A stretch of 64,000 nucleotides of DNA from Candidatus Tumulicola sp. GTDB taxonomy: Bacteria; Vulcanimicrobiota; Vulcanimicrobiia; Vulcanimicrobiales; Vulcanimicrobiaceae. The translations under genes and the position numbers were made by a program. Location of the stretch: positions 124,001 to 188,000 of the forward strand of contig DASXDT010000002.1 in NCBI GenBank assembly GCA_036490475.1, given 5' to 3'. The notes under the pieces are model-generated. The model made no database searches, was not told where the DNA came from, and saw only the letters and a program-made list of their open reading frames with translations. Shown one piece after another: positions 1,588 through 37,847 of the stretch. Numbering within the stretch: position 1 is the stretch's first letter; each line of letters opens with the position of its first letter.

Positions 1588-2310
1588 ATGCACAGACGTA
1601 GCATCTATGTGATGGGCCCGATCGTTGGGGCACTCATCTCCACTGGGTCGTCGGTGGCATGCAATGGCGGCACATCACCGCTCACTGCCTTCGAGAGAGA
1701 TGACGCCCTACCGGCCTATAGCTTTAACGTTGACGTGGCAATGGCCATGCGACACTTCCCATGGCTGCACTTTCACGTGCAGGGCATCGGAAATTACCGG
1801 CCAGGCAAGTCTTATGTCATTCACATCGACAGATTGCCGTGGTTTGCCCCGCACCCCGCTCACGACATCGATCTTTCCATGCTTGATCCGGCGATGTGGC
1901 CTTCGCGCTTCCTCTACCAAGAGGTGGGTGAGGGCGCCGGAAACACCGTCTACGCGCTTCGCGCCATCGACGATCCCACGCTAACGAGCGCGACGGTCAC
2001 GCTCGGGCCGAGGTTCTGCACGCGGGAAGTCGATACGGTATATACCGGGGGCACCCGGATAAAATTGAACGTCACCTTCAGCCGGGTCGGTGCCTTTATG
2101 CTGCCGGCGAGGCTCACCGCCGACATTAAAGAAACGCATCTATTGCTTTCCGCCAATGCCCAGTTCAGCAACTACACCTTCGATTCAAGCTCGGTCGGTG
2201 ACTCATCGGAAGGTCCGCACGTAGACTCACACATTTTTTTTTGGAGCCCTCCATATGGACGTACGACCAATCTGGGGCATCAAGACGCAGTCATCCGACG
2301 CAGCCTTTAG
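1588..2310 (+). CDS. Secreted protein of unknown function, probably frameshifted near its 3' end
   Basis: The ATG at 1588 follows GGCGGAGA and gives MHRRSIYVMGPIVGALISTG, a basic start followed by a hydrophobic segment that fits a signal peptide; in-frame starts further upstream lack that layout. The mature part (about 200 residues) is rich in beta-forming residues and has no family I recognise. The gene contains a run of nine T at 2234-2242. After it the annotated frame ends in a short tail at 2310, whereas removing one T opens a natural-looking tail (MDVRPIWGIKTQSSDAAF...) that ends at a TAG at 2346-2348. The true C-terminus is therefore uncertain. Confidence 0.6.
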   Translation: MHRRSIYVMGPIVGALISTGSSVACNGGTSPLTAFERDDALPAYSFNVDVAMAMRHFPWLHFHVQGIGNYRPGKSYVIHIDRLPWFAPHPAHDIDLSMLDPAMWPSRFLYQEVGEGAGNTVYALRAIDDPTLTSATVTLGPRFCTREVDTVYTGGTRIKLNVTFSRVGAFMLPARLTADIKETHLLLSANAQFSNYTFDSSSVGDSSEGPHVDSHIFFWSPPYGRTTNLGHQDAVIRRSL

Positions 2311-2475
2311 ATCTGCATACCAGCCCGTGTTGGAGGATGTCGTCTAGGACATCTTAACGTTGTATCGCCCGGATTGGTCGCATGAGCTGGAAATTACCGC
2401 GTGTCAATTTGTCGTTTTCGTCGAATACTTCATCAAACAGTCTGCCGGATTCAGTCAGGAACCTAGAGCAGAACG

Positions 2476-3042
2476 TTACTCTTGGAGTTTATTCGCTTTC
2501 TTGAAGTCCGAACGCGCGTGCTCAATGGCTTTCAGGGCGGCTTTCCGCGAGCCGGTGCCCTTGAACTCTAGGTCGTTGCCCTCTGCGGTAGAATAGTCGA
2601 CGAGATACCGGCAGATACTTTGAATCATGTCTTCGGGTACGTCCGAAATGTCGTTGAACGGGTCGGACTTCTGCGTTAGGCCCTTTTGATTTAGCGGGCA
2701 TCCCAAGACCCGATCATTTTCTTTGCCATTTTTCTTCAGACGCACGACACCGATGATACGCGCACTTACCAAACAGCCAGTGAACGTCGGCTTTTCACCG
2801 AGATAGAGAACGTCGAGTGCATCGCCATCCGCCGCCAATGTTTGGGGAATGAAGCCATAGTCGTACGGCCACTGTAATCCCTCGGCGAGCAGCATAGACA
2901 GTCGGAAGAGACCCGTCTTTTCGTCGAACGCATACTTGTGGCGCTGATCACGTGGCGTCTCGATTACTGCGTTGACTGCATTCTTTTCGAGCTTGTTCCA
3001 AGTGGGAATTTCGTGCACAGCCGAAATCTGTCGCTTCGCCAT
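2476..3042 (-). CDS. ppa: Inorganic pyrophosphatase, family I
   Basis: Hydrolyses pyrophosphate to phosphate in the cytoplasm, pulling biosynthetic reactions forward. The 188-residue product carries the family I active-site signature DGDALDVLYLGE (Asp72, Asp74 and Asp77 for metal binding) and the nearby YDYGFIP motif (about residues 60-66). Length is close to the usual 170-220. I chose the ATG at 3042 because AAAAGGAGAAGA precedes it and the conserved domain begins soon after; an upstream in-frame start would lie inside the aquaporin gene. The start is one base beyond the aquaporin stop codon, so the two are almost certainly one transcription unit with coupled translation. Confidence 0.92.
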   Translation of the reverse strand: MAKRQISAVHEIPTWNKLEKNAVNAVIETPRDQRHKYAFDEKTGLFRLSMLLAEGLQWPYDYGFIPQTLAADGDALDVLYLGEKPTFTGCLVSARIIGVVRLKKNGKENDRVLGCPLNQKGLTQKSDPFNDISDVPEDMIQSICRYLVDYSTAEGNDLEFKGTGSRKAALKAIEHARSDFKKANKLQE

Positions 3043-8754: not shown

Positions 8755-9798
8755 CTAGTAGTGGCTTTGCGTGCCTTGTGGGAAGACGGTCATCGCGACC
8801 GCCCAATGCTGCAATGCGGGCGCACTCAAGGTTGCAATCGGAGGAGCGTCACCGCCGGCACCCGGCGCGAAGACGAGCACTCGGCCTGCGTCATCGACGT
8901 ACAGATTACCGTGTCGGTCGAAACTGAGGGCGGTGGGGTATTGGATTGTCGTATCAGGTCCAGCAATCGTTCGTAGCGGTGCGATGTTGCCGTTGGTGCT
9001 GCCGGCCGGGTAGACGGTGATGGACGCGTGGGCGACCTGGGCGACATAGAGGTTACTGGTTTGGTCAAAGGCGAGGCCAGACGGACTGAATATCGCGGTC
9101 TTCGGGCCGGTGATAGTTCCAATCGGGCGTGCCGATCCATGCGTGCCGGCGCTAAAGACTTCGATCGCGCCGTTGCCGTGATAGCCGTTGCGGCTCGTAG
9201 AGAGATAGATTCGTCCGCTGGCATCGAGTGCGATGCCGTTTGCGAGACGCCGCCGCTCGAGTTGCCGGGTGCGCTGGTAGGTGCCGTTGACGTCGTGGTA
9301 GACCGCGTTGTTCCCCGCAAGGCTTCCGATGGCTTCACCGGCGGTGTAGATGTTTTCGTGTCGGTCGATGTAGAGTGCATTGACCGGTCCGACGTTGCCG
9401 ATCGTGCGGAGCGGCGCGACATCGCCGTATTGCTGTTTGGCATATTCGGTAATGGTGCACGTGTCGCACGAGCTGTCGCCAAAGCCATTGGCGACGAAGA
9501 TGTTGCCGTTCCGGTCGGGAGCGATTGCGTATGGCGTGGTGATTCCGGATGCCAGGCCGGCGATCGTTCCGAGCAATCGCGGTTTGTGACCGGTATATGC
9601 CTGCACGGCGCCGATCACGCTTGGGTCGACTTGATCGAGCTCGACGATATAGAGCGTACCATCGATGGAAAAGCCCGAATGCGACGCGTGACCGTTTGGA
9701 ATAGCCGTAGCGGATCTCGCAGCGACAACTGGGGTTGTTGCAGCACCACTGCAACCGCTCATAACAATGAAGAGTAGGCTGAAAGCACAAAGACGCAT
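8755..9798 (-). CDS. NHL-repeat lipoprotein
   Basis: A 347-residue lipoprotein (MRLCAFSLLFIVMSGCSG, lipobox Cys16) with a good ribosome site (GAGGAAC) before the ATG at 9798. The mature part has at least five blade-like repeats with the NHL pattern, for example PYAIAPDRNGNIFVANGFG, NGIALDASGRIYLSTSRNG, SGLAFDQTSNLYVAQVAH and TALSFDRHGNLYVDDAG. It should fold as a six-bladed propeller in the periplasm or at the surface. A similar lipoprotein is at 6715. A frameshifted LuxR gene lies just upstream on the same strand, mirroring the LuxR/lipoprotein pairing there. Confidence 0.87.
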   Translation of the reverse strand: MRLCAFSLLFIVMSGCSGAATTPVVAARSATAIPNGHASHSGFSIDGTLYIVELDQVDPSVIGAVQAYTGHKPRLLGTIAGLASGITTPYAIAPDRNGNIFVANGFGDSSCDTCTITEYAKQQYGDVAPLRTIGNVGPVNALYIDRHENIYTAGEAIGSLAGNNAVYHDVNGTYQRTRQLERRRLANGIALDASGRIYLSTSRNGYHGNGAIEVFSAGTHGSARPIGTITGPKTAIFSPSGLAFDQTSNLYVAQVAHASITVYPAGSTNGNIAPLRTIAGPDTTIQYPTALSFDRHGNLYVDDAGRVLVFAPGAGGDAPPIATLSAPALQHWAVAMTVFPQGTQSHY

Positions 9799-9969
9799 AG
9801 ACGTTCCTCTGTATAACGATACGACGATAGCGGTGCCTCGCTCTACGGAGGAACGTAGCGTTCGGCTAGGGCGGTCGAACCATACGCCTGAGACGATGGG
9901 CCTAGGGAGGGGTGCGCTGGGCGCGACGGTTGGCGATGCCGGCGCCGCCGGCGATGCAGCAGCCGAACG

Positions 9970-10484
9970 TTACTGGTGGTAGATCGCGGTCTTTGCAATC
10001 AGCTCTGCGCGGGATCGGACTTCGAATTTCTTAAAGAGCACTTTGACGTGATTGCGCACGGTGTGAATGCTGCGGTCGAGTTCTTCGGCGATCCGCGCGT
10101 CCGAAAAGCCTTGGTTCACAGCGAAGAGCACCTTGCGCTGCGCCGACGGTAAAGCGTCAATGGCGCGTCTAACGACCGGTCTTCGGACGCTGGATGGAGC
10201 AAGGGCGGGGACTCGTAGGCCTGATAGGCGTCGAGTGCAGCTTCGAGCCGCTTTCTCCGCGGTGAGTCTTGGGCGGTCGCATTGATTAATTGCTGCAGCA
10301 TCTGTTCGTCGTTTGGGCCGTGCAACGACTCGCGCACCTTGTCCGCGATCGGTTTGAGACCGTCATCGTCGAGTGCCTCGCATAAGCGCTGAACCTCCTT
10401 TCGCGTCGCATCGTTCGTATTCACAAGAGCGCAGCGCGCGAGCATCGGAAGAATGCTGAGGTGCTTCATCGATGATTCAGGCAT
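9970..10484 (-). pseudogene. LuxR-type regulator broken by a frameshift
   Basis: The first part (MPESSMKHLSILPMLARCAL, from 10484) is a helical domain of about 100 residues that runs out of frame after PPLLHPASED. One frame over, the sequence continues with a complete LuxR helix-turn-helix: ALPSAQRKVLFAVNQGFSDA, RIAEELDRSIHTVRNHVKVL, ending IAKTAIYHQ at a TAA (9970-9972). The frame switch must lie around 10150-10240. Either the gene is inactivated, or there is a sequencing indel, or the frames are joined by recoding. If intact it would be a ~170-residue DNA-binding regulator. Confidence 0.65.
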
Positions 10485-10753
10485 ACGCTACACTTTCCCA
10501 AACGATGAGCAACGTCCCGGGCTGCCGACTTGTTGGTCACGACATTCAGACGTGTTCCATTTGCGCGCGAAAGAGGGCTCGGCGTTCCGAGGAGACGTAC
10601 AGCCAAAGATGGGTTCTGTAACGGTTCGCATCGCGTCGCCCGGGGAGTGGGACATTGGCCGAAAGGTCGCCTTACAAGAAGCCCTAGCTCCGGCAGCGCT
10701 TGCCGATACGCCAGAAGCGATCGCGCTCACAAGAATATCTGGACATACGCGGA

Positions 10754-11143
10754 ATGGACCTTTACATGCTGAAAAACGGCTTTAGCACCTTTGCTTCCAG
10801 CGTTAATCGCTTCGTTTCATCGCCAGCGGCCACAGGCGCCGCTTTCCTTGTCATTATTGTCTGGGCCATATTCGGACCGGCGACGCACTATTCGAATAGC
10901 TGGCAACTTATTATCAACACTGGAACGACGATCGTTACCTTCCTCATGGTCTTCGTCCTGAATAATGCCCAGAGCCGCGATACTGCAGCGATGAATGTAA
11001 AGCTCGACGCGCTGATTATCGCAATCGCAAAAGCCGATAATCGGCTGATTGGGCTCGAGTCAAAACCGGCCACCCAAGTCGAGCAACTAACAGCGGAAAT
11101 ACGAGAGTCAATCGAAAGACAAAACTCGGTTAGTAATGAATAG
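10754..11143 (+). CDS. Low-affinity iron permease-like membrane protein
   Basis: About 129 residues with two hydrophobic helices and the block SWQLIINTGTTIVTFLMVFV followed by LNNAQSRDTAAMNVKLDALI, which is the hallmark of the low-affinity iron permease family (PF04120, related to yeast Fet4). Only the short single-domain bacterial form is present. Transport of iron has not been shown for most bacterial members. Two nearby ATGs (10754, 10766) are possible starts; neither has a strong ribosome site. The C-terminal helix is charged and probably cytoplasmic. Confidence 0.8.
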   Translation: MDLYMLKNGFSTFASSVNRFVSSPAATGAAFLVIIVWAIFGPATHYSNSWQLIINTGTTIVTFLMVFVLNNAQSRDTAAMNVKLDALIIAIAKADNRLIGLESKPATQVEQLTAEIRESIERQNSVSNE

Positions 11144-11179
11144 CAGCCACTGCCGCGTGGCCGCGAGCGGCCACCTGGC

Positions 11180-11584
11180 ATGATTGACCATCAAAACGAC
11201 ATCGTGGCAGCCTGTTTGTCCGGCGCCTCCGACAAATCGCTTTCCTTTCAGCAGATCGCCGCAACGCTGGAAGGCGAAGGCTTCGAAAGTCTGCTCGTGG
11301 ACTTCCGTCGGTCGGCAGCAACATTCTACCAGAGCGGCGACGGGGCGGCGGTTGTGGCCCGTCTCAAGCCAACCCAAGGTATGGTCGGTCATGTTTTTGC
11401 CGAAGCGGAAATTCGGTCGGCTATCAAGCGAACCAGCCGCGGTTCATATCAGTACGGTTGCCTTGAATGGTGGAATGATCTCGTCGAAGCCGGCTGCGCG
11501 GGCTTCATTGCCTCGTTTTCTGCGCACCGTGTTATTTACTTCGGGAGAAACGCCGAAGCGTTGATTATCCAGGAAGACGCGTAG
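11180..11584 (+). CDS. DUF1398 family protein
   Basis: A 134-residue soluble protein. The VDFRRSAATFY block, an IRSAIKRTSRGSYQY-like centre and the end AGCAGFIASFSAHRVIYFGR match the DUF1398 (E. coli YbcV-like) layout. The biochemical function of the family is unknown. It lies 36 bases after the iron-permease-like gene in the same direction, so the two may share a transcript. Confidence 0.75.
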   Translation: MIDHQNDIVAACLSGASDKSLSFQQIAATLEGEGFESLLVDFRRSAATFYQSGDGAAVVARLKPTQGMVGHVFAEAEIRSAIKRTSRGSYQYGCLEWWNDLVEAGCAGFIASFSAHRVIYFGRNAEALIIQEDA

Positions 11585-29723: not shown

Positions 29724-30263
29724 GTGAATCTTTCGAGAACGCACGCTGGCATCATGACATTAGCGGCGGCATTTTCGCTCCTGCGCTACGGTCCGCAGGC
29801 GTTATTAGAGCTCATTCACGCACAAGTCCACGAATTCACGCTGCCAAAGCGTCATCTTGCGGCATTGGGTGCGCGCAGTTATCTGAATAAACGTGTCTCG
29901 TTGCGCAGCCCGGAGAATATTTCGATCGGAAGTGACGCAAGTATCGGTCCGGATAGTCGGCTGTGGGCGTCGCCCGGTGCAAAGTTATGTATAGGGGACA
30001 AAGCGCTTTTCGGCCCCAACGTTTTAATTCTCACCTCCAACCATGGTGTATCCGAGCGCGACGTCGCGATGATCGACCAACCGTGGATTGAGCGCGAGGT
30101 ACATATCGGAGCGGACGTTTGGATCGGCGCGAACGCCGTCGTTCTGCCGGGCGTCACGATCGGCGACCATAGCATCATTGCAGCCGGCGCTATCGTCACC
30201 AAAGATGTTGCGCCGTATTCGGTGGTCGGCGGAGTTCCGGCGAGAGTGATCATGTCGCGCTAG
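29724..30263 (+). CDS. Hexapeptide-repeat acyltransferase
   Basis: A 179-residue left-handed beta-helix acyltransferase (WbbJ/LbH type) that likely O- or N-acetylates a sugar using acetyl-CoA. Imperfect hexapeptide repeats run from about residue 65 (ISIGSDASIGPDSRL) to 170 (VHIGADVWIGANAVVLPGVT, IGDHSIIAAGAIVTKDV), with the catalytic-type His in LTSNHG and the usual end YSVVGGVPARV. Start could be GTG 29724 or ATG 29754. It lies about 270 bases before the cyclitol operon and may act on its product; this is inference. Confidence 0.8.
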   Translation: MNLSRTHAGIMTLAAAFSLLRYGPQALLELIHAQVHEFTLPKRHLAALGARSYLNKRVSLRSPENISIGSDASIGPDSRLWASPGAKLCIGDKALFGPNVLILTSNHGVSERDVAMIDQPWIEREVHIGADVWIGANAVVLPGVTIGDHSIIAAGAIVTKDVAPYSVVGGVPARVIMSR

Positions 30264-30555: not shown

Positions 30556-31779
30556 ATGACGAGCCTCGATTATAATCCGCACCACTTTGACGACGAGACT
30601 CCCGCGATCGCCGACGAAGGTCAGATTTCAACCAGCATCCCGATGTCGTCGACGACCTCGGCCCTCGACATTGGCGATGATGGCGTTATCCGTGTCTCCA
30701 TACAGAGGCGGCTATCGTATGCGGTAGTGAGCGCGCGCTCTCCGGTCTTTTCGCCGCAATCGCGGCTCCTGCAAAACGTGCTTGATGGCCGGCCGGTGTT
30801 TTTCGTGATCGACGCTGCCGTCGATGCAAGATATGGGATCGAATTACGATCGTACGCCGCAACGTATCTTGAGTGTGCCGGCAATATTGCGATCAGCCCC
30901 CGTGAAGGCCATAAAACGCTAGCGACCGTCGAACAAATCTGCAGCGCTGCCGGTGAGGCCGGTCTTCCACGGGATGGAGTGATCTTCGGAGTAGGCGGCG
31001 GCGTAACGCTCGATCAAGCCGGACTCGCGGCGTCCCTTTATCGTCGCGGTATTCTCTTTGGTCGACTTCCCACGACGCTTGTTGGCATGGTGGACGTCGC
31101 CGTTGGAATCAAGCAAAGCGTCAATCACAATCGGCACAAGAATCTCCTTGGGGCATTCTATCCGGCGTTCACGAACATCATTGATGTTGGGTTTTTAACC
31201 TCGCTTGCGGCGCGGGACATCGCGAGCGGTATCGCGGAGATCGCCAAGATGGCGATCATCTGCGATCCACGCTTGTTTGAGTTGCTCGAACGTCATGGAC
31301 TCTGGCTCGTCCGAAGCAAATTTCAATCTCGAGCGTTGGGCGAAGAAGTAATTCGTCGCGCGCAACTGACGATGATGGGCGAGTTGTGCGGCAACCTCTA
31401 TGAGGAGGAGCGCGCCCGAAAGGTCGACCTCGGGCATACGTTCAGTCCGCTTCTTGAACGACGGAGCGACTTTTCACTTTCGCACGGCCAGGCCGTGGCC
31501 GTAGACGTCAGTTTTTCTGCGGCGATAGCATGCGAGCTCGGCTTCTGCGACTCAGTTCTCGTCACACGCATCGTGGAACTGTTTCAGTCCGTTGGGCTTC
31601 CCATTATTCACGATGCGCTCGATTTAGAACTCGCGCTTGATGCAATCGCAATGGCACGCAAGCACCGAGGAAATCTCAATCTCGTAGTACCACGCGATAT
31701 TGGTTCCGTGATGTTTCTGCAAGACGTTGGGACGCCAATTCTGCGAGACGCACTGTTGCGCTTGAAAGCGCGCGTTTGA
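30556..31779 (+). CDS. Sugar-phosphate cyclase, sedoheptulose-7-phosphate cyclase-like
   Basis: About 407 residues of the dehydroquinate-synthase superfamily. NAD-binding GVGGGVTLDQAGLAASLYRR, PTTLVGMVDVAVGIKQSVNH, and the zinc ligands in GIAEIAKMA (Glu), VDLGHTFSP (His) and LSHGQAVAVD (His) are present. HKNLLGAFYP in place of the GKN of true AroB, LERHG, and GHTFSP point to the cyclases that turn sedoheptulose 7-phosphate into valiolone-type C7 cyclitols (AcbC/ValA relatives). Whether the product is 2-epi-5-epi-valiolone, an epimer, or deoxygadusol cannot be told. ATG at 30556 preferred over an upstream TTG. First gene of an overlapping six-gene operon. Confidence 0.82.
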   Translation: MTSLDYNPHHFDDETPAIADEGQISTSIPMSSTTSALDIGDDGVIRVSIQRRLSYAVVSARSPVFSPQSRLLQNVLDGRPVFFVIDAAVDARYGIELRSYAATYLECAGNIAISPREGHKTLATVEQICSAAGEAGLPRDGVIFGVGGGVTLDQAGLAASLYRRGILFGRLPTTLVGMVDVAVGIKQSVNHNRHKNLLGAFYPAFTNIIDVGFLTSLAARDIASGIAEIAKMAIICDPRLFELLERHGLWLVRSKFQSRALGEEVIRRAQLTMMGELCGNLYEEERARKVDLGHTFSPLLERRSDFSLSHGQAVAVDVSFSAAIACELGFCDSVLVTRIVELFQSVGLPIIHDALDLELALDAIAMARKHRGNLNLVVPRDIGSVMFLQDVGTPILRDALLRLKARV

Positions 31780-32744
31780 GCGCGCTCGCCGTCGATCTCG
31801 GGGGCACATTCTTACGGACGGCCGTACTCCGCGACGACGGCGCGTTCGAGTCAATTAGCCGACGTCGCCTGAGTACGGTATTTGACGGTCGTTCTGCTGC
31901 GAACGTCTGGGCGGAAGTTATCGACGGCGTGACCGAAGCCGCTCACAGCTCGCTTGGGCGCGGCGCCCGACATATCGCGATTTCGTTTCCGGGGCCCGTT
32001 AGCGGCGCGGCACCACTGAGTGCGCCGACATTAACTGGTTCCGAGCCGGTGCCTTTGGACTTCGCCACGCAAATCGAACAACGCACCGGCAAACGGGTGC
32101 GGATCGTCAATGACGTGGCCGCTGCTGCCGCGTATATCGCAGCTACTACGAACGATAGCGCGTTTTTTGTTGTTACGGTTAGTAGTGGCATCGGCAGTCG
32201 CGTGTACCATCGAAATGCTCGTCAAACGCAAGTCGCGTACGATGGTGAAATCGGCCATTTGGTTGTGGACACCGGCCCGAATGCGCCGATCTGCGACTGC
32301 GGTGGTCGAGGTCACCTCGGGGCCATTGCATCGGGACGCGGCTTTGAACGTCTGGCTCGCGCCGCGGCCGAACGGCAGGCGACGGAATTCGCCGCCTCGA
32401 TGTGCGGTCGCGCGGGTATTGCGCCCGAGGCCCTAACCAACGAGCGTGACTTAGTACCGGCCCTCCGAGCCGGCGACCCATGGGCTACAGCTCTATTGCG
32501 AGACTCGATTAGCCCGCTTTCACGGCTAGCGTTTCAGATAGTTGTGGCCTCGGGGCTTGAAAGAATTTATGTAGTTGGCGGATTTGCGTCGGCCCTTGGA
32601 TCGTGTTATGTCGAGGCTTTTAACGCGGCGCTCGAATCATACGTTGACTCAGGCGCACTAAGAATAAAGGTGCGTGAACTGACGCGTCTACTTCAACCTG
32701 GCGCTGAGGCGGCGCTTCGCGGTGCCGCGCTAGCTCGTGACTGA
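31776..32744 (+). CDS. ROK-family kinase with altered zinc motif
   Basis: A 322-residue kinase. LAVDLGGTFLRTAVL binds ATP phosphate, VNDVAAAAA supplies the catalytic Asp, and GEIGHLVVD precedes the zinc site. The usual CxCGxxGCxE is CDCGGRGHLG here, so the third Cys is His and the Glu is Gly. TTG start at 31776 overlaps the cyclase stop as TTGA. In acarbose-type pathways a kinase phosphorylates the C7 of the cyclitol; by position this enzyme probably does a similar step. ROK members also act on glucose, ManNAc and fructose, so substrate is inferred from context only. Confidence 0.82.
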   Translation: MSALAVDLGGTFLRTAVLRDDGAFESISRRRLSTVFDGRSAANVWAEVIDGVTEAAHSSLGRGARHIAISFPGPVSGAAPLSAPTLTGSEPVPLDFATQIEQRTGKRVRIVNDVAAAAAYIAATTNDSAFFVVTVSSGIGSRVYHRNARQTQVAYDGEIGHLVVDTGPNAPICDCGGRGHLGAIASGRGFERLARAAAERQATEFAASMCGRAGIAPEALTNERDLVPALRAGDPWATALLRDSISPLSRLAFQIVVASGLERIYVVGGFASALGSCYVEAFNAALESYVDSGALRIKVRELTRLLQPGAEAALRGAALARD

Positions 32745-33468
32745 GCTCGCTCTCGTGATGGCGGGGGGCCGGTCGACGCGTATGCGCGCTACGGCGGGTC
32801 CTGCGCACAAAGCCATGATCGAGATCGGAGAGATCTCACTGATTGAGCGTAACGTGCGTCAATTGCTCGGCTTCGGATTCCGAAAGTTGGGCGTTGTGGT
32901 TTCCAGCGCGGAAAAGGAACTGCACGAGTTCGTCGTCGAGCGCATTGCGCCGATCGCAGCCGAGTCGTCGGCGCAGTTATCGGTGTTCGTTGAGGCTGCG
33001 CCGCTCGGCAATATCGGATTTGCAGGGACGATCAAAGACGTCGACGACGTTCTCGTAACCTACGTCGACAACCTTACTGGGATCGATGCTAAAGCGCTTC
33101 TTGCGCACCACCGTCAGATGGCCTACGACCTAACCATTGCGGCTCACGTCGAATCTGTGCCGTTGTCTTACGGGGTGCTCCAGATTAGCCACGGTTTAAT
33201 CGTCGAATATAATGAGAAGCCCGTGACCGACTTCGTGATATCTAGCGGCACATGCGTTGTTGGTCGACGTGCGCGCGATCTGATGCCCCAGGGAGTACGC
33301 GTCGATGCGCGCGAGCTCTTTCGCGTGTGTTCGAACGCCGGGGTTCGCATCGGCGCGTATTTGCATACCGCATTGTGGGTCGATGTGAACGATGCCGGCG
33401 CCACGCAACGTGCGTCGGACTTGATGAAGCTGCATCCGGAGTTCATGCGACCGGAGGCCGACTCTTGA
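32737..33468 (+). CDS. Sugar/cyclitol-1-phosphate nucleotidyltransferase
   Basis: A 243-residue NTP-transferase fold enzyme: LALVMAGGRSTRMRATAG with the AHKAM lysine region, and LVTYVDNLTGID in the metal-binding position. It joins NTP and a sugar (or cyclitol) phosphate to make an activated donor. GTG start at 32737 overlaps the kinase gene by eight bases. Short compared with RmlA/GlmU (no hexapeptide domain). In the operon order it follows the kinase and precedes the glycosyltransferase, so it likely provides the donor for transfer. Confidence 0.8.
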   Translation: MTELALVMAGGRSTRMRATAGPAHKAMIEIGEISLIERNVRQLLGFGFRKLGVVVSSAEKELHEFVVERIAPIAAESSAQLSVFVEAAPLGNIGFAGTIKDVDDVLVTYVDNLTGIDAKALLAHHRQMAYDLTIAAHVESVPLSYGVLQISHGLIVEYNEKPVTDFVISSGTCVVGRRARDLMPQGVRVDARELFRVCSNAGVRIGAYLHTALWVDVNDAGATQRASDLMKLHPEFMRPEADS

Positions 33469-34682
33469 AGCGGCGAATTCGCATCCTCTCAGTCGTTAAC
33501 GGTGTTGCGTACGGCGGTGACGAACACCGGATGCTGTCGTTTGCCACGCACATCGACCGACGGCGCTTCGACCATTGTATCGCAGTAATTAAGTCGCCTG
33601 ATGCCCGCATCGATGCATTGTACGGGTCACTTCGTCAAGAATATGACTCGGCACGGATTCCGCTCATCGATCTGGGTGTTAAGCGCCTCGGGAATGGAGT
33701 GAGCCGCAATATTCTCCGCCACTTACCGCGGAGCGCTATCGGATTCGCGACGGCCATTCATCGGCTTACTCGGCTCGTGCGCGAGCGCGACGTCGATATA
33801 GTGGACGGTCATATAGGGACCGGCAATCAGGCTGCGGTGGCCGTGGGGAGATTGACCGGCCGACCGGCATCGATAACCACCTATCATGGCGAGTTTTTTT
33901 CGCCGCAGGCGTTGTGGCATCTCGTACAACAGAGCACGCTCCGAGGCGCCAACGTTATCATCACCGACTCGGAGCAGCGAGCCGAGGCAATGCGGACGTT
34001 CCTGCGCCGTCAGCGGCAGCCGATAACAATTATTCCGAACGGTATCCCAGCCGAGCCGCCTCGGCGACCTGCTCGCGACGTCGCGGCGGAACTGGGGATA
34101 CCCAATGACCCCGGATGCGTGGTCATAGGTCAAATAGCCGGGATGATTCCAGTAAAGGGATGGGCTACGCTGGTGGAGGCTGCGACGCTCGTGCTCGCCC
34201 GCGAACCGAAGGCCTTCTTCGTGTGCGTTGGTTACAGTCGTTCCGATCCAACCTTTAGCACGGCTTTGCGCGAGAGCGCCGAACGTCGAGGCGTCGCAAA
34301 CCGGATGCGAATTCTTTCATACCCCGGGCACAACGCGGACGTTTGGCAATTATTCGATATCCACGTCCACGCCTCACATTTCGATTCGCTTCCGAATGCA
34401 ATAATCGAAGGAATGGCGTACGGGAAACCGGCGGTCGTCACCGACGTGGGTGACTGTGCCCGAACGGTCATCGACGGGGTCTCCGGTTTTGTGGTTCCGC
34501 CACGCAATGCCCGTGCACTGGCGGACGCATTGCTCCGGTTGCTGTCGGACCCCGCTCTTCGCGACCGCTTCGGCCGTGAAGCACGAAACCGGTACGTTGC
34601 TCGCCATCGCCCCGAGCTCATGACTGAGGCGCTGGAAGCGCTCTTCGAGCGAATGGCGCATAGGCGCATGGCACATACATGA
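33465..34682 (+). CDS. GT4-family glycosyltransferase
   Basis: About 405 residues with GT-B fold. N-domain starts RIRILSVVNGVAYGGDEHRM; C-domain has IGQIAGMIPVKGWATLVEAA and SHFDSLPNAIIEGMAYGKPA, the family 4 E-x7-E type donor site. The TTG start at 33465 overlaps the previous stop as TTGA, and the ORF end overlaps the next ATG by four bases. It likely transfers the activated sugar or cyclitol made by its neighbours to an unknown acceptor. Confidence 0.85.
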   Translation: MKRRIRILSVVNGVAYGGDEHRMLSFATHIDRRRFDHCIAVIKSPDARIDALYGSLRQEYDSARIPLIDLGVKRLGNGVSRNILRHLPRSAIGFATAIHRLTRLVRERDVDIVDGHIGTGNQAAVAVGRLTGRPASITTYHGEFFSPQALWHLVQQSTLRGANVIITDSEQRAEAMRTFLRRQRQPITIIPNGIPAEPPRRPARDVAAELGIPNDPGCVVIGQIAGMIPVKGWATLVEAATLVLAREPKAFFVCVGYSRSDPTFSTALRESAERRGVANRMRILSYPGHNADVWQLFDIHVHASHFDSLPNAIIEGMAYGKPAVVTDVGDCARTVIDGVSGFVVPPRNARALADALLRLLSDPALRDRFGREARNRYVARHRPELMTEALEALFERMAHRRMAHT

Positions 34683-35590
34683 AAATTTTTGTCACCGGGG
34701 CGGGTGGTTTTATCGGGCGCGCGACCGTACGCATCCTCGCGCGAAGCGGCCACGAAGTTACCGCGCACGTAGCCCCTACCGAGGGCGAAATGCCGGCGCC
34801 TTCCGAGGCCACGGCGTGCGTTCATTTCGCGATCGAGAATGCGGCCGAGTTCGCAAATCGAATGGCGGCATGCGAGGTCGTCGTCCATTTGGCTGGCCCG
34901 GCAGCTGTCGCCGCGTCGTTCGGGGATCCGGAGGAGTATATGAGATCGCATGCCGTTGGTACGTGTGCGGTGATCTCCGCGATGCGCAGAGCCGGCGTAC
35001 GGCGGCTCGTATATGTTTCTTCGGCCGAGATATACGGCCGCCGCGACGAGCCTCGAGTTCGGGAGGACATGACGCCAAGTCCGCGGTCGCCGTATGCAGC
35101 AGCGAAGGTGGGCGCCGAGGCGATCGTCGCTGCTGCTGCGCGAGGCGGACTGCTGCGTGCGGTCGTGCTCCGACCGTTTTCGGTCTACGGTCCGGGGCAG
35201 CGACACGCCTCGCTTCTCGCACGAATTATTGATCAGGCGCAGTCAGGCACCGATATCCAACTCCGCGATCTTACTCCGACGCGCGATTATTGCTTCGTCG
35301 ACGACGTTGCGAACGCGATACGGAGTGCTTGCCATCACGCGGCCAGCGAAATCGCGATTTTCAACGTCGGCACCGGAATTGGGACCAGCGTCGGACAACT
35401 GGCGGCGATCGCTACTGAAGTTATGGGTACCTCTGCTCCGGTTATCGAGCTTGGCGCCGATCGAGGGGCGAGCGAAATCTTCCGCCTAATCGCAGACCCA
35501 TCGCATGCACGTCTTGAGCTTGGATGGCAGGCGAGCGTTGACGTACGTACTGGGATCGCTAGAACGCTCGAGGCAGGCGCATTGGCATGA
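34679..35590 (+). CDS. NAD-dependent epimerase/dehydratase (first)
   Basis: A 303-residue extended SDR enzyme: NAD-binding MKIFVTGAGGFIGRATVRIL, catalytic SSAEIYG and YAAAK, then VLRPFSVYGPGQRHASLLAR and the TRDYCFVDDVANAI region. It would oxidise, epimerise or dehydrate a nucleotide-sugar or cyclitol. Overlaps both neighbours by four bases (ATGA). Exact reaction unknown. Confidence 0.85.
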   Translation: MKIFVTGAGGFIGRATVRILARSGHEVTAHVAPTEGEMPAPSEATACVHFAIENAAEFANRMAACEVVVHLAGPAAVAASFGDPEEYMRSHAVGTCAVISAMRRAGVRRLVYVSSAEIYGRRDEPRVREDMTPSPRSPYAAAKVGAEAIVAAAARGGLLRAVVLRPFSVYGPGQRHASLLARIIDQAQSGTDIQLRDLTPTRDYCFVDDVANAIRSACHHAASEIAIFNVGTGIGTSVGQLAAIATEVMGTSAPVIELGADRGASEIFRLIADPSHARLELGWQASVDVRTGIARTLEAGALA

Positions 35591-36666
35591 CACAGACGTT
35601 GCTCGTCACGGGTGCGCAAGGATTCGTAGGACGATGGTTCATCGCAGAGGCGTTGCGCCGATGGCCGACATATCGAATCGTCGGCATAGGGCGCTCGGCG
35701 CGGCGTCCAACGGCCTTTACGCATGAGATTACGCTCGGGACGCATCGCGTCACAGCACCTCTTCCATCGGCGCTGAGTGGCGATTCCGATCGCTTTACCT
35801 ATTGCATCGCCGATATTCGGAAGATCGAAACGCTGATACCTATTCTGCGAGAAACCTGCCCCACATACGTTGTTCACCTCGCCTCCGCGCTCCGCGACGA
35901 TCCGCCACATATGCTGTTCCCCATCAACGTTGAAGGAACGATCTCGCTCCTGACTGCGATTGGGCAGGCTGACGTGACCCCACAGGCGATTGTCATCGGA
36001 TCGAGCGGTTCAGTTTACGGTTCTGCGGCATCATTGCCGATCGGTGAAACCGATTGCTGCGCCCCGAACGATCTGTACGCAATCAGTAAGTACTGCGCTG
36101 AAATGGCGGCGACGTTGTTCGCTAGACAAACTGGACTGCCGATCATCTTGGCCCGGCTATTCAACATTGTGGGGCCCGGTCTCGATGAACGGCACGCCTG
36201 CGCGCGTTTCGCATCGCAATTCGCCGCAATCTCTGCCGGATTGGCTGAGCGATGCATTGCGATTGGCGATCTTTCAAACACGCGCGATTTTATCGATGTT
36301 CGCGACGTCGCGATAGCGATCGCGATCCTTTTGGAGCGCGGCGTGTCCGGTAGTACTTACAACGTAGCGAGTGGAAGGGAAACTGCGATGCAAACCATCT
36401 TTAGGACGCTTGAGGAACAAGCAAACCTCGAGGGAGAGGTTAGGATCAAGCAAAGCTATAGACGTTTCAGCGATTGCCCGCGAGCATATGCCGACATCAG
36501 CCGGCTGCTCGCCCTGGACTTTTACCCACGATGGACCCTCACGGAATCCTTACGTTCGCTCTATGCCTATTACGTCGGTTCGATTGCCGAGGTCGCCGGT
36601 CAAACGGTAGCTACAACCCCGGCGACAAGCGCCGCCGCCGTCGACGGGTGCCCCACCCATGGGTGA
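35587..36666 (+). CDS. NAD-dependent epimerase/dehydratase (second)
   Basis: A 359-residue extended SDR enzyme: LLVTGAQGFVGRWFIAEALR, IGSSGSVYGSAASLP, YAISKYCAEMAATLFAR (Tyr/Lys pair), ILARLFNIVGPGLDER and SNTRDFIDVRDVAIAIAILL. It resembles GDP-mannose dehydratase/reductase-type enzymes more than the first. The C-terminal 22 residues are low-complexity and overlap the convergent GH4-like gene by 67 bases. Last gene of the operon. Confidence 0.85.
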   Translation: MTQTLLVTGAQGFVGRWFIAEALRRWPTYRIVGIGRSARRPTAFTHEITLGTHRVTAPLPSALSGDSDRFTYCIADIRKIETLIPILRETCPTYVVHLASALRDDPPHMLFPINVEGTISLLTAIGQADVTPQAIVIGSSGSVYGSAASLPIGETDCCAPNDLYAISKYCAEMAATLFARQTGLPIILARLFNIVGPGLDERHACARFASQFAAISAGLAERCIAIGDLSNTRDFIDVRDVAIAIAILLERGVSGSTYNVASGRETAMQTIFRTLEEQANLEGEVRIKQSYRRFSDCPRAYADISRLLALDFYPRWTLTESLRSLYAYYVGSIAEVAGQTVATTPATSAAAVDGCPTHG

Positions 36667-37847
36667 GCCGAGAGGGTGTTAGCGAGTCGATGGACGTCTC
36701 GAGTTCCGACGACATTTGCTGCGACGGTCTCATATGTTATGAACGCTTGGAGCGTTTCGGCGATGGCTTTAGGAACGCGCGTTGGCGACGGTGTCGCGTA
36801 AAATTGTCCGTCGTGCATGCGATGGGGGATTTCCAAGACGGCGTTTGCGTCGATGTTTGGTAGGTAATGAGCGTTGCGGCTTGTGAGGAAGAACGTCGCG
36901 CTGGAGGCGCCCAAACGGTTGGCGTCAATCCATGGTGCGACAGCGTGCTGGTACCATGGCGCGTGCCGTAGAGCGAGCGCGCGACGCACTGCCTCGCGAT
37001 TTCCAGCGGAATACGCCTGCAGAGCAGCTACAGCCATTGAGGCGACGGTACGCCCACGCGGAGGCGAAGCACGCTGTTCTTCAAGAACGTCGGCGCGCGT
37101 TTCGTGTAGGCGTACATACGGTAATGGCACGGCCGACAAGCGGCGAATAAGCGAGGCGGTCGGAAAAACGTTTTCGGTGCGCGTTGTCGCATAGACATCC
37201 AACATGTCACTGCCGTCCAGTGCCTGAAGGCGCGTGAACCAACCAAGGTGGTTCACGCCGACGTAATCATACCGAAGGTGCGGTTCGTTTACGGCTTCGG
37301 AGATCTGCCGCAATACGACGGCCGGCAATTCGCAGAGCCCGGCGACTTTCAAGTTGGGGTACGTATCTTGCGCGCACCGCGCAAGTATTCCCAAAGGCGC
37401 CGTGAGGAGCCCGATCCTCGAAAGGGGACATCGGACTGCGATTTTTGCCAAGATCTCGCGCAATATGGGCCAGGTGCGCCAAGCGGCGGCGAGTCCTCCA
37501 GGACCAAGCCCTTCATCGCCCGGCACTCCAGCGGTTAACGGGAACGACTCATCATGGATTCGCGCCGCGAATCCGCCAACACGAATCTGGATGACTACGA
37601 GCGCAGCACCTTCCAGCGCAGCGTCGAGATCCGTCGTCGTCTCAATTGCGCCGCCAAGAGACGGCGCAAGCAGCACAGCAGCTCGCCGAACCGCCTGGAG
37701 ACGATCGGTGTTGCGGCCGAACAAGACGAACCGTACGCCGGAATCAGCACCGAACCGCGAGTCGATGAGGAGATTGGGAGTACTCGGCGCACTGCCGCCA
37801 ATGATGACCACTCTGGTCCGATCGCGAACGCCGTCGCTTCCCGTCAT
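36600..37847 (-). CDS. GH4-like NAD-dependent glycosidase
   Basis: A 415-residue enzyme of the glycoside hydrolase 4 type, which uses NAD and Mn to open glycosidic bonds by oxidation-elimination. VVIIGGSAPSTPNLLID binds NAD; VVIQIRVGGFAARIHDES, GLGPGGLAAAWRTWPIL, AGLCELPAVV (metal Cys) and GVNHLGWF (metal His) follow in order. The usual TNPSGI motif is TAPLGI, so the Asn is Ala. It converges with the cyclitol operon and may remodel or release its product; that is inference. Substrate unknown. Confidence 0.8.
   Translation of the reverse strand: MTGSDGVRDRTRVVIIGGSAPSTPNLLIDSRFGADSGVRFVLFGRNTDRLQAVRRAAVLLAPSLGGAIETTTDLDAALEGAALVVIQIRVGGFAARIHDESFPLTAGVPGDEGLGPGGLAAAWRTWPILREILAKIAVRCPLSRIGLLTAPLGILARCAQDTYPNLKVAGLCELPAVVLRQISEAVNEPHLRYDYVGVNHLGWFTRLQALDGSDMLDVYATTRTENVFPTASLIRRLSAVPLPYVRLHETRADVLEEQRASPPRGRTVASMAVAALQAYSAGNREAVRRALALRHAPWYQHAVAPWIDANRLGASSATFFLTSRNAHYLPNIDANAVLEIPHRMHDGQFYATPSPTRVPKAIAETLQAFITYETVAANVVGTRDVHRLANTLSAHPWVGHPSTAAALVAGVVATV

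Follow-up and report, generated by a model that had tools for sequence, protein, structure and literature searches.

A predicted C7-cyclitol biosynthesis cluster with a GH4-like enzyme as a core member in uncultured soil bacteria

We analyzed a 64,000-nucleotide stretch of DNA (the window; contig DASXDT010000002.1, positions 124,001 to 188,000) from Candidatus Tumulicola sp., a member of the Eremiobacterota with a 3.3 Mb genome (G000). It contains a gene cluster (Table 1) that is probably a biosynthetic pathway for a C7-cyclitol (a carbocyclic pseudo-sugar), with the steps cyclization, 7-phosphorylation, a redox step of the glycoside hydrolase family 4 (GH4) type, nucleotide activation and transfer. 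Six forward genes encode a cyclase, a ROK-family kinase, a nucleotidyltransferase, a family 4 glycosyltransferase (GT4) and two extended short-chain dehydrogenases/reductases (SDRs). The start codon of each gene after the first lies ahead of the preceding stop codon, with overlaps of 4, 8, 4, 4 and 4 bases, and by layout the six are a single transcription unit. The gene for a GH4-like enzyme lies on the minus strand, converges on them, and overlaps the 3' end of the second SDR gene by 67 bases. An initial annotation of this DNA had described six genes overlapping by 4–8 bases, their families, and the sequence marks HKN and GHTFSP in the cyclase; all of this agrees with the sequence and with Pfam matches, which exceed the curated cut-offs for every family in the locus. 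We regard the gene identities, the operon layout, the separateness of the cyclase from AroB, the conservation of the gene set and the linkage to GH4 as established, and we word the reactions and the product as predictions.

The cyclase belongs to the 3-dehydroquinate (DHQ) synthase superfamily, and it is not AroB. Its nearest solved relatives are ValA (4p53, 222 bits; 37% amino acid identity), the desmethyl-4-deoxygadusol synthase DDGS (5tpr, 169 bits) and AroB (129 bits), in that order. Aligned with these three types, it keeps the Glu/His/His metal ligands and the catalytic lysines of the superfamily (E228, H294, H310, K186, K195 and K231). The HKN mark is found as VNHNRHKN, and in an alignment of 116 cyclases its GHTFSP motif corresponds to GHSFSP in ValA, GHTWSP in DDGS, and GHTxGH or GHTxAH in AroBs. 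At two positions that we take, from earlier work on ValA and from the same alignment, to discriminate 2-epi-5-epi-valiolone synthase (EEVS) from DDGS, it has the ValA residues Asp291 and His370; these are Ala and Thr in DDGS, and in AroB the first is Asn and the second varies; the fingerprint D291/S297/P298/H370 as a whole agrees with ValA. The existence of sites that discriminate EEVS from DDGS is described in the gadusol literature (eLife 2015, PMC4426668). In a maximum-likelihood tree, AroBs and sedoheptulose-7-phosphate cyclases are split with 100/100 support and the window cyclase is on the sedoheptulose side, in a clade of 12 rows (100/99); the AroB group needs one change only. The initial annotation had set a grouping with AroB beforehand as an outcome that would count against it. 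The genome has a second gene of the DHQ synthase family, on contig C5, and this one groups with the AroBs of related species. We therefore rejected an AroB paralog on the basis of the tree, the motif and the separate genomic AroB. There is only a very slim chance that the cyclase is nevertheless a second DHQ synthase within an ordinary nucleotide-sugar or heptose cluster: its best-scoring family models are DHQ synthase models, but its score of 200 bits is under the aroB equivalog cut-off of 305 bits, and its motif is not the GHTFGH of AroB. By sequence, we classify it as a non-DHQ-synthase cyclase of the sedoheptulose-7-phosphate type, with sedoheptulose 7-phosphate as its predicted substrate.

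Several relatives (L034, L036, L037, L038, L046, L049 and L051) have a cyclase with an extra N-terminal region of roughly 140–300 residues that has no Pfam match. A low-confidence model of this extension from L036 (about 10402–11242, minus strand; predicted local distance difference test score, pLDDT, of 64) resembles the ASKHA/ROK sugar-kinase fold. Its best match is N-acetylmannosamine kinase 5nck (Z = 9.7, root-mean-square deviation 3.8, 205 residues aligned), so these cyclases may be fused to a degenerate kinase.

The same genes recur together in other genomes, relatives included; a lack of conservation in relatives was the other outcome that would have counted against the initial annotation. 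An alignment-based scan of genome contigs for the cyclase found 80 loci, and a single-sequence scan of genome contigs gave no matches. Within its class, the cyclase clade has a patchy distribution, in six genomes from five genera and two families, including four of the 99 genomes of the window's own family. The cluster is missing from the closest genome within the genus; in that comparison, a flanking gene has many paralogs and no clear syntenic partner. Locus L033 is collinear with the window cluster. In L034 and L035, the genes for the nucleotidyltransferase, GT4, (SDR1) and SDR2 converge on a GH4–ROK–cyclase operon, and gene order is rearranged further in L036 and L037. Beyond the phylum, the set is present in Acidobacteriota (L048 and L050, with L049 lacking GH4), Chromatiaceae of the Pseudomonadota (L061) and Planctomycetota (L101), and the cyclase and GH4 genes, mostly together with ROK, are found in Methylobacterium, Latescibacterota, Geminicoccaceae and Myxococcota metagenome-assembled genomes (MAGs). 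The set is thus conserved in Eremiobacterota soil bacteria and in scattered bacteria from at least five other phyla, which rules out that carbohydrate genes came together here by chance.

The GH4-like gene belongs to the core of the cluster. By PF02056 searches of 148 genomes, we found GH4 in exactly those six genomes of the class in which the cyclase clade occurs, and in 0 of the remaining 103 (109 genomes of the class were searched). Every GH4 copy in the class sits in the cluster, always beside the cyclase; genome G107, for example, has two such cyclases and two GH4s. The naive significance of this co-occurrence is p = 5e-10, which is indicative only, given the relatedness and incompleteness of the genomes. 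The order cyclase–ROK–GH4, with the genes adjoining on the same strand, occurs in L034, L035, L036 and L037, and likewise in L048, L061 and L113. Within the flanks that we fetched, GH4 was not found in validamycin-like or other Streptomyces loci, nor in Paenibacillus loci. The initial annotation was right that the gene converges on the operon in the window, and missed that it is part of the core rather than a bystander.

By its N- and C-terminal GH4 domains, residues and fold, the protein is classed in GH4. The NAD motif, the metal-binding Cys172 and His200, Asn199, and Tyr244 (equated with the base of BglT by alignment) are invariant among 14 homologs, and the predicted fold (pLDDT 94.4) matches BglT (1up4) with Z = 46.0 and a root-mean-square deviation of 2.2 over 391 aligned residues. 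A small tree places the cluster GH4s in a single clade (100/99) apart from the solved enzymes and the canonical GH4s of relatives. Their two sub-groups match the two groups of the cyclases, the pattern to be expected of genes that move as a unit. The motif CE[LV]P is invariant in the cluster GH4s, where most of a small sample of canonical GH4s have CN[VI]P or CDxP. Because of this motif and the separate clade, a reaction other than the hydrolysis of a (6-phospho-)glycoside is possible.

GH4 enzymes have an odd redox mechanism that has long set them apart among glycosidases: NAD+ oxidizes C3, C2 is deprotonated, the group at C1 is expelled, and the steps are then reversed. Most of them require a 6-phosphate on the substrate. 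In acarbose biosynthesis, 2-epimerization by AcbO and dehydration by AcbL act on cyclitol 7-phosphates (PMC7081202), which mimic hexose 6-phosphates (PMC9200736). Because of this mimicry, the AcbO/AcbL precedent and the cyclase–ROK–GH4 gene order of most loci, the GH4-like enzyme most likely epimerizes or dehydrates a cyclitol 7-phosphate, by analogy with these enzymes. Transient oxidation, alpha-deprotonation and re-reduction would change the ring without glycosidic cleavage, taking the role of AcbO/AcbL. We put at about even the chances of a wider proposal, that this GH4-like clade left hydrolysis to become an NAD-dependent epimerase or dehydratase of C7-cyclitol 7-phosphates, and that the cluster represents a second type of C7-cyclitol pathway, present in at least six phyla, mostly uncultured. 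It is rather unlikely that the cyclitol pathway is real and the GH4-like protein acts in it as a conventional 6-phospho-glycosidase, removing or recycling a cyclitol glycoside (in catabolism, self-protection or trimming) instead of helping to make the cyclitol. Such a role would fit the full retention of catalytic residues and fold, and the position of the gene outside the forward operon in the window, but not its place on the same strand beside ROK and cyclase in the seven loci listed above, its separate clade, in which the metal-site motif is altered, or its tie to the cyclase rather than to sugar-uptake genes.

The kinase has a signature in common with other cyclase-linked ROK proteins. Most ROK proteins linked to sedoheptulose-7-phosphate cyclases in the fetched loci have the pattern C[DE]CGxxGHLGAxxSGRG, with His at the site of the third Cys in solved N-acetylmannosamine kinases. 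The window protein shares the unusual CxCGxxGHLGA part of it with the ROK protein of L079, a validamycin-like locus from Streptomyces. The L079 cyclase is 86% identical to ValA, and a GlgC-like gene separates it from the ROK gene, which is the arrangement that valA-valB-valC would have. Two C7-cyclitol kinases of the ROK family are known, AcbM and ValC (PMC9200736), and we predict a C7-cyclitol 7-kinase of this type. In the proposed pathway, the cyclase would convert sedoheptulose 7-phosphate to 2-epi-5-epi-valiolone or a close isomer, as its active-site residues and family suggest, and the kinase would phosphorylate the C7 hydroxyl of this product.

For the later steps, we propose that the nucleotidyltransferase makes an NDP-cyclitol from the 1-phosphate, that the two SDRs modify either the NDP-cyclitol or a partner NDP-sugar, and that the GT4 enzyme joins the two; alternatively, these four proteins might decorate the cyclitol. 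Housekeeping genes would supply phosphate transfer to C1 and dephosphorylation. When the nucleotidyltransferase was compared by BLASTP with the GlgC-like open reading frame (ORF) of L079, no match exceeded the reporting limit. Judged by sequence, it differs from the GlgC-like ValB/AcbR type and falls in another branch of the same superfamily. The GT4 protein has a homolog in L033 that is 65% identical. The nearest solved proteins are MoeE5 for SDR1 and 6x3b for SDR2, which is closest to GDP-6-deoxy-mannose reductases. The initial annotation had proposed the logic of the acarbose and validamycin pathways; this is supported for the first steps by a fingerprint-matched cyclase and a cyclase-linked type of ROK, and the later half differs in its GT4 and its nucleotidyltransferase.

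Several observations weigh against the pathway as we propose it. ValA and DDGS share a clade (100/97) to which the window cyclase does not belong, so the product may not be 2-epi-5-epi-valiolone; because of this we claim no product and call the enzyme EEVS-like rather than EEVS, an assignment suggested by its residues only. The cyclase tree was made without reference sequences for 2-deoxy-scyllo-inosose synthase (DOIS) and 2-epi-valiolone synthase (EVS). We know of no characterized member of the window clade, and this placement, with the low identity to ValA, would suit another product of sedoheptulose 7-phosphate, such as 2-epi-valiolone, desmethyl-4-deoxygadusol or a new isomer; we consider that improbable, though not negligibly so, and the ValA residues at the discriminating positions argue against it. 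In L049, a closely related cluster, genes for DegT, MocA, cupin, cyclase, ROK, nucleotidyltransferase and SDRs are present and GH4 is missing, so not every such pathway needs the GH4 step. No characterized enzyme closely resembles the nucleotidyltransferase, which has weak similarity to mannose-1-phosphate guanylyltransferase and glucose-1-phosphate cytidylyltransferase (all model scores below cut-off). Finally, the locus has no 1-kinase or mutase, no phosphatase and no classical cyclitol (C1-ketone) reductase.

The activated cyclitol could also be built into a cell-surface glycan (a polysaccharide or glycolipid) rather than into a secreted small metabolite, which we regard as a realistic possibility, if not the one we expect. 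Surface-glycan loci typically have this combination of a GT4 enzyme, a pair of extended SDRs and a nucleotidyltransferase of the sugar type, and the homologous clusters in L049, L050, L113 and L119 adjoin further glycosyltransferases. Against this, the window has a single glycosyltransferase there, and we saw no flippase, polymerase or chain-transfer gene near the locus.

No aminotransferase gene is present in the window locus, as the initial annotation had noted, and DegT aminotransferases are also absent from L033–L036. This does not hold for sister clusters: L037, L038, L048, L049, L050, L064 and L101 have a linked DegT aminotransferase (57–71% mutual identity), L061 has a more distant one, and several of these DegT-bearing clusters also have a MocA-type oxidoreductase, a NUDIX protein and a cupin. 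The DegT and MocA pair would add an amine in those clusters. The window genome encodes two full-length DegT proteins elsewhere, unlinked and 40–46% identical to the cluster type. Because it has no linked aminotransferase, our best guess for this lineage is a non-amino product, probably a cyclitol glycoside to judge from the genes present, and perhaps acylated. Pseudo-oligosaccharide clusters without an aminotransferase are known (PMC9200736).

Comparison with known systems shows a mixture of likeness and difference. The validamycin cluster of Streptomyces hygroscopicus (ValA, ValB, ValC and ValL) is alike in its cyclase with the same two discriminating residues, its nucleotidyltransferase and glycosyltransferase, and its linked ROK kinase, which has the same signature (CxCGGRGHLGAIASGRG, as seen in L079). 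It differs in that its cyclase is in another clade, ValB is GlgC-like and its pseudo-glycosyltransferase is GT20-like, whereas the window has GT4, a GH4-like enzyme, two extended SDRs and no linked aminotransferase. The acarbose cluster (AcbC, AcbM, AcbO, AcbL, AcbN, AcbU, AcbJ, AcbR and AcbS) shares the order of chemistry (cyclize, 7-phosphorylate, modify, activate, transfer) and has a ROK-family kinase in AcbM (PMC9200736), but the window has no recognizable AcbL, AcbU or AcbJ, no GT5-type AcbS/AcbI and no AcbV aminotransferase, and the GH4-like gene stands in place of the ring-modifying enzymes. The aminotransferase-less clusters of PMC9200736 likewise have a cyclase, a nucleotidyltransferase and a glycosyltransferase, but they are defined by AcbS/AcbI homologs (GT5/GT1-like), and that paper has no GH4-like enzyme. 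A parallel to the predicted product is the EEVS-dependent non-amino C7-cyclitol streptol and its glucoside from Candidatus Burkholderia kirkii (PMC8599487). The GH4 6-phospho-glycosidases BglT (1up6) and GlvA (1u8x) share the fold, NAD site, metal Cys/His and Tyr base of the window enzyme, and differ from it in the CE[LV]P motif, the clade and the linkage to cyclitol genes.

A drug (acarbose) and a crop protectant (validamycin) are among the C7-cyclitols, and to our knowledge the known pathways are nearly all from actinomycetes. In the literature that we searched, there seems to be no description of the cyclase clade, its GH4-like partner, the GT4/SDR set or the host phyla, and the chemistry is of a known kind; we found no publication joining GH4 with valienol or valiolone, in an incomplete search with most subscription journals outside it. 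A conserved and differently built pathway in uncultured soil phyla hints at pseudo-sugars not yet known, and allows a direct test of whether a GH4 enzyme has been reused for biosynthesis.

Table 1. Features of the cluster, in window coordinates.
Feature	Position	Strand	Basis
Hexapeptide-repeat O-acyltransferase, possible tailoring gene, membership doubtful	29724..30263	+	Pfam Hexapep
Sedoheptulose-7-phosphate-type cyclase, DHQ synthase superfamily, not AroB	30556..31779	+	Pfam DHQ_synthase and DHQS_C, solved relatives, fingerprint, tree
ROK-family kinase, signature CDCGGRGHLGAIASGRG, predicted C7-cyclitol 7-kinase	31776..32744	+	TTG start; Pfam ROK, signature
Nucleotidyltransferase, predicted activator of cyclitol or sugar 1-phosphate	32737..33468	+	Pfam NTP_transf_3/NTP_transferase
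GT4 glycosyltransferase	33465..34682	+	TTG start (mechanical ORF starts earlier, within the nucleotidyltransferase gene); Pfam Glycos_transf_1 / Glyco_transf_4
Extended SDR 1, nucleotide-sugar epimerase/dehydratase-like	34679..35590	+	Pfam Epimerase; YxxxK and GxxGxxG present
Extended SDR 2, GDP-6-deoxy-mannose reductase-like	35587..36666	+	Pfam Epimerase; YxxxK present
GH4-like NAD-dependent enzyme, core pathway member	36600..37847	-	Pfam Glyco_hydro_4 and Glyco_hydro_4C, invariant residues, fold, linkage

The acyltransferase that the initial annotation placed upstream of the operon is indeed there, and its connection to the cluster is less secure: among the relatives, only L036 has a homolog (45% identical) close to its cluster.

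The scans also met other types of cyclase. By alignment and tree, the matches in genomes G061 (L039), G075 (L040) and G015 (L041) are other cyclase types or AroB-like, and we excluded them from this system. The L039 cyclase (1755–2903, minus strand) is of the sedoheptulose-7-phosphate type, 41% identical to ValA, with GHTFSY (Tyr for Pro); it groups with L094 of Desulforadius, and its cluster is of a different type. In G015, another Eremiobacterota genome, L041 has a DDGS-like cyclase (about 9090–11558) with GHTWSP, Ala at the Asp site and Lys at the His/Thr site, which groups with DDGS 5tpr (100/98) and is possibly a mycosporine/gadusol-type gene in Eremiobacterota. The contigs of L046 and L047 are apparently near-identical (equal match positions and scores) and are binned as Syntrophaceae and Ignavibacteriales MAGs, which may reflect contamination of one bin or both. 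In Streptomyces alfalfae XY25, the same cyclase–ROK locus occurs on three contigs (L052, L053 and L054), as repeated copies or an assembly artifact. L052–L057 and other Streptomyces loci form a distinct cyclase clade, linked to a ROK of the cyclitol type, in which Arg takes the place of His370 and Asn that of Pro172; its product specificity is probably a different one.

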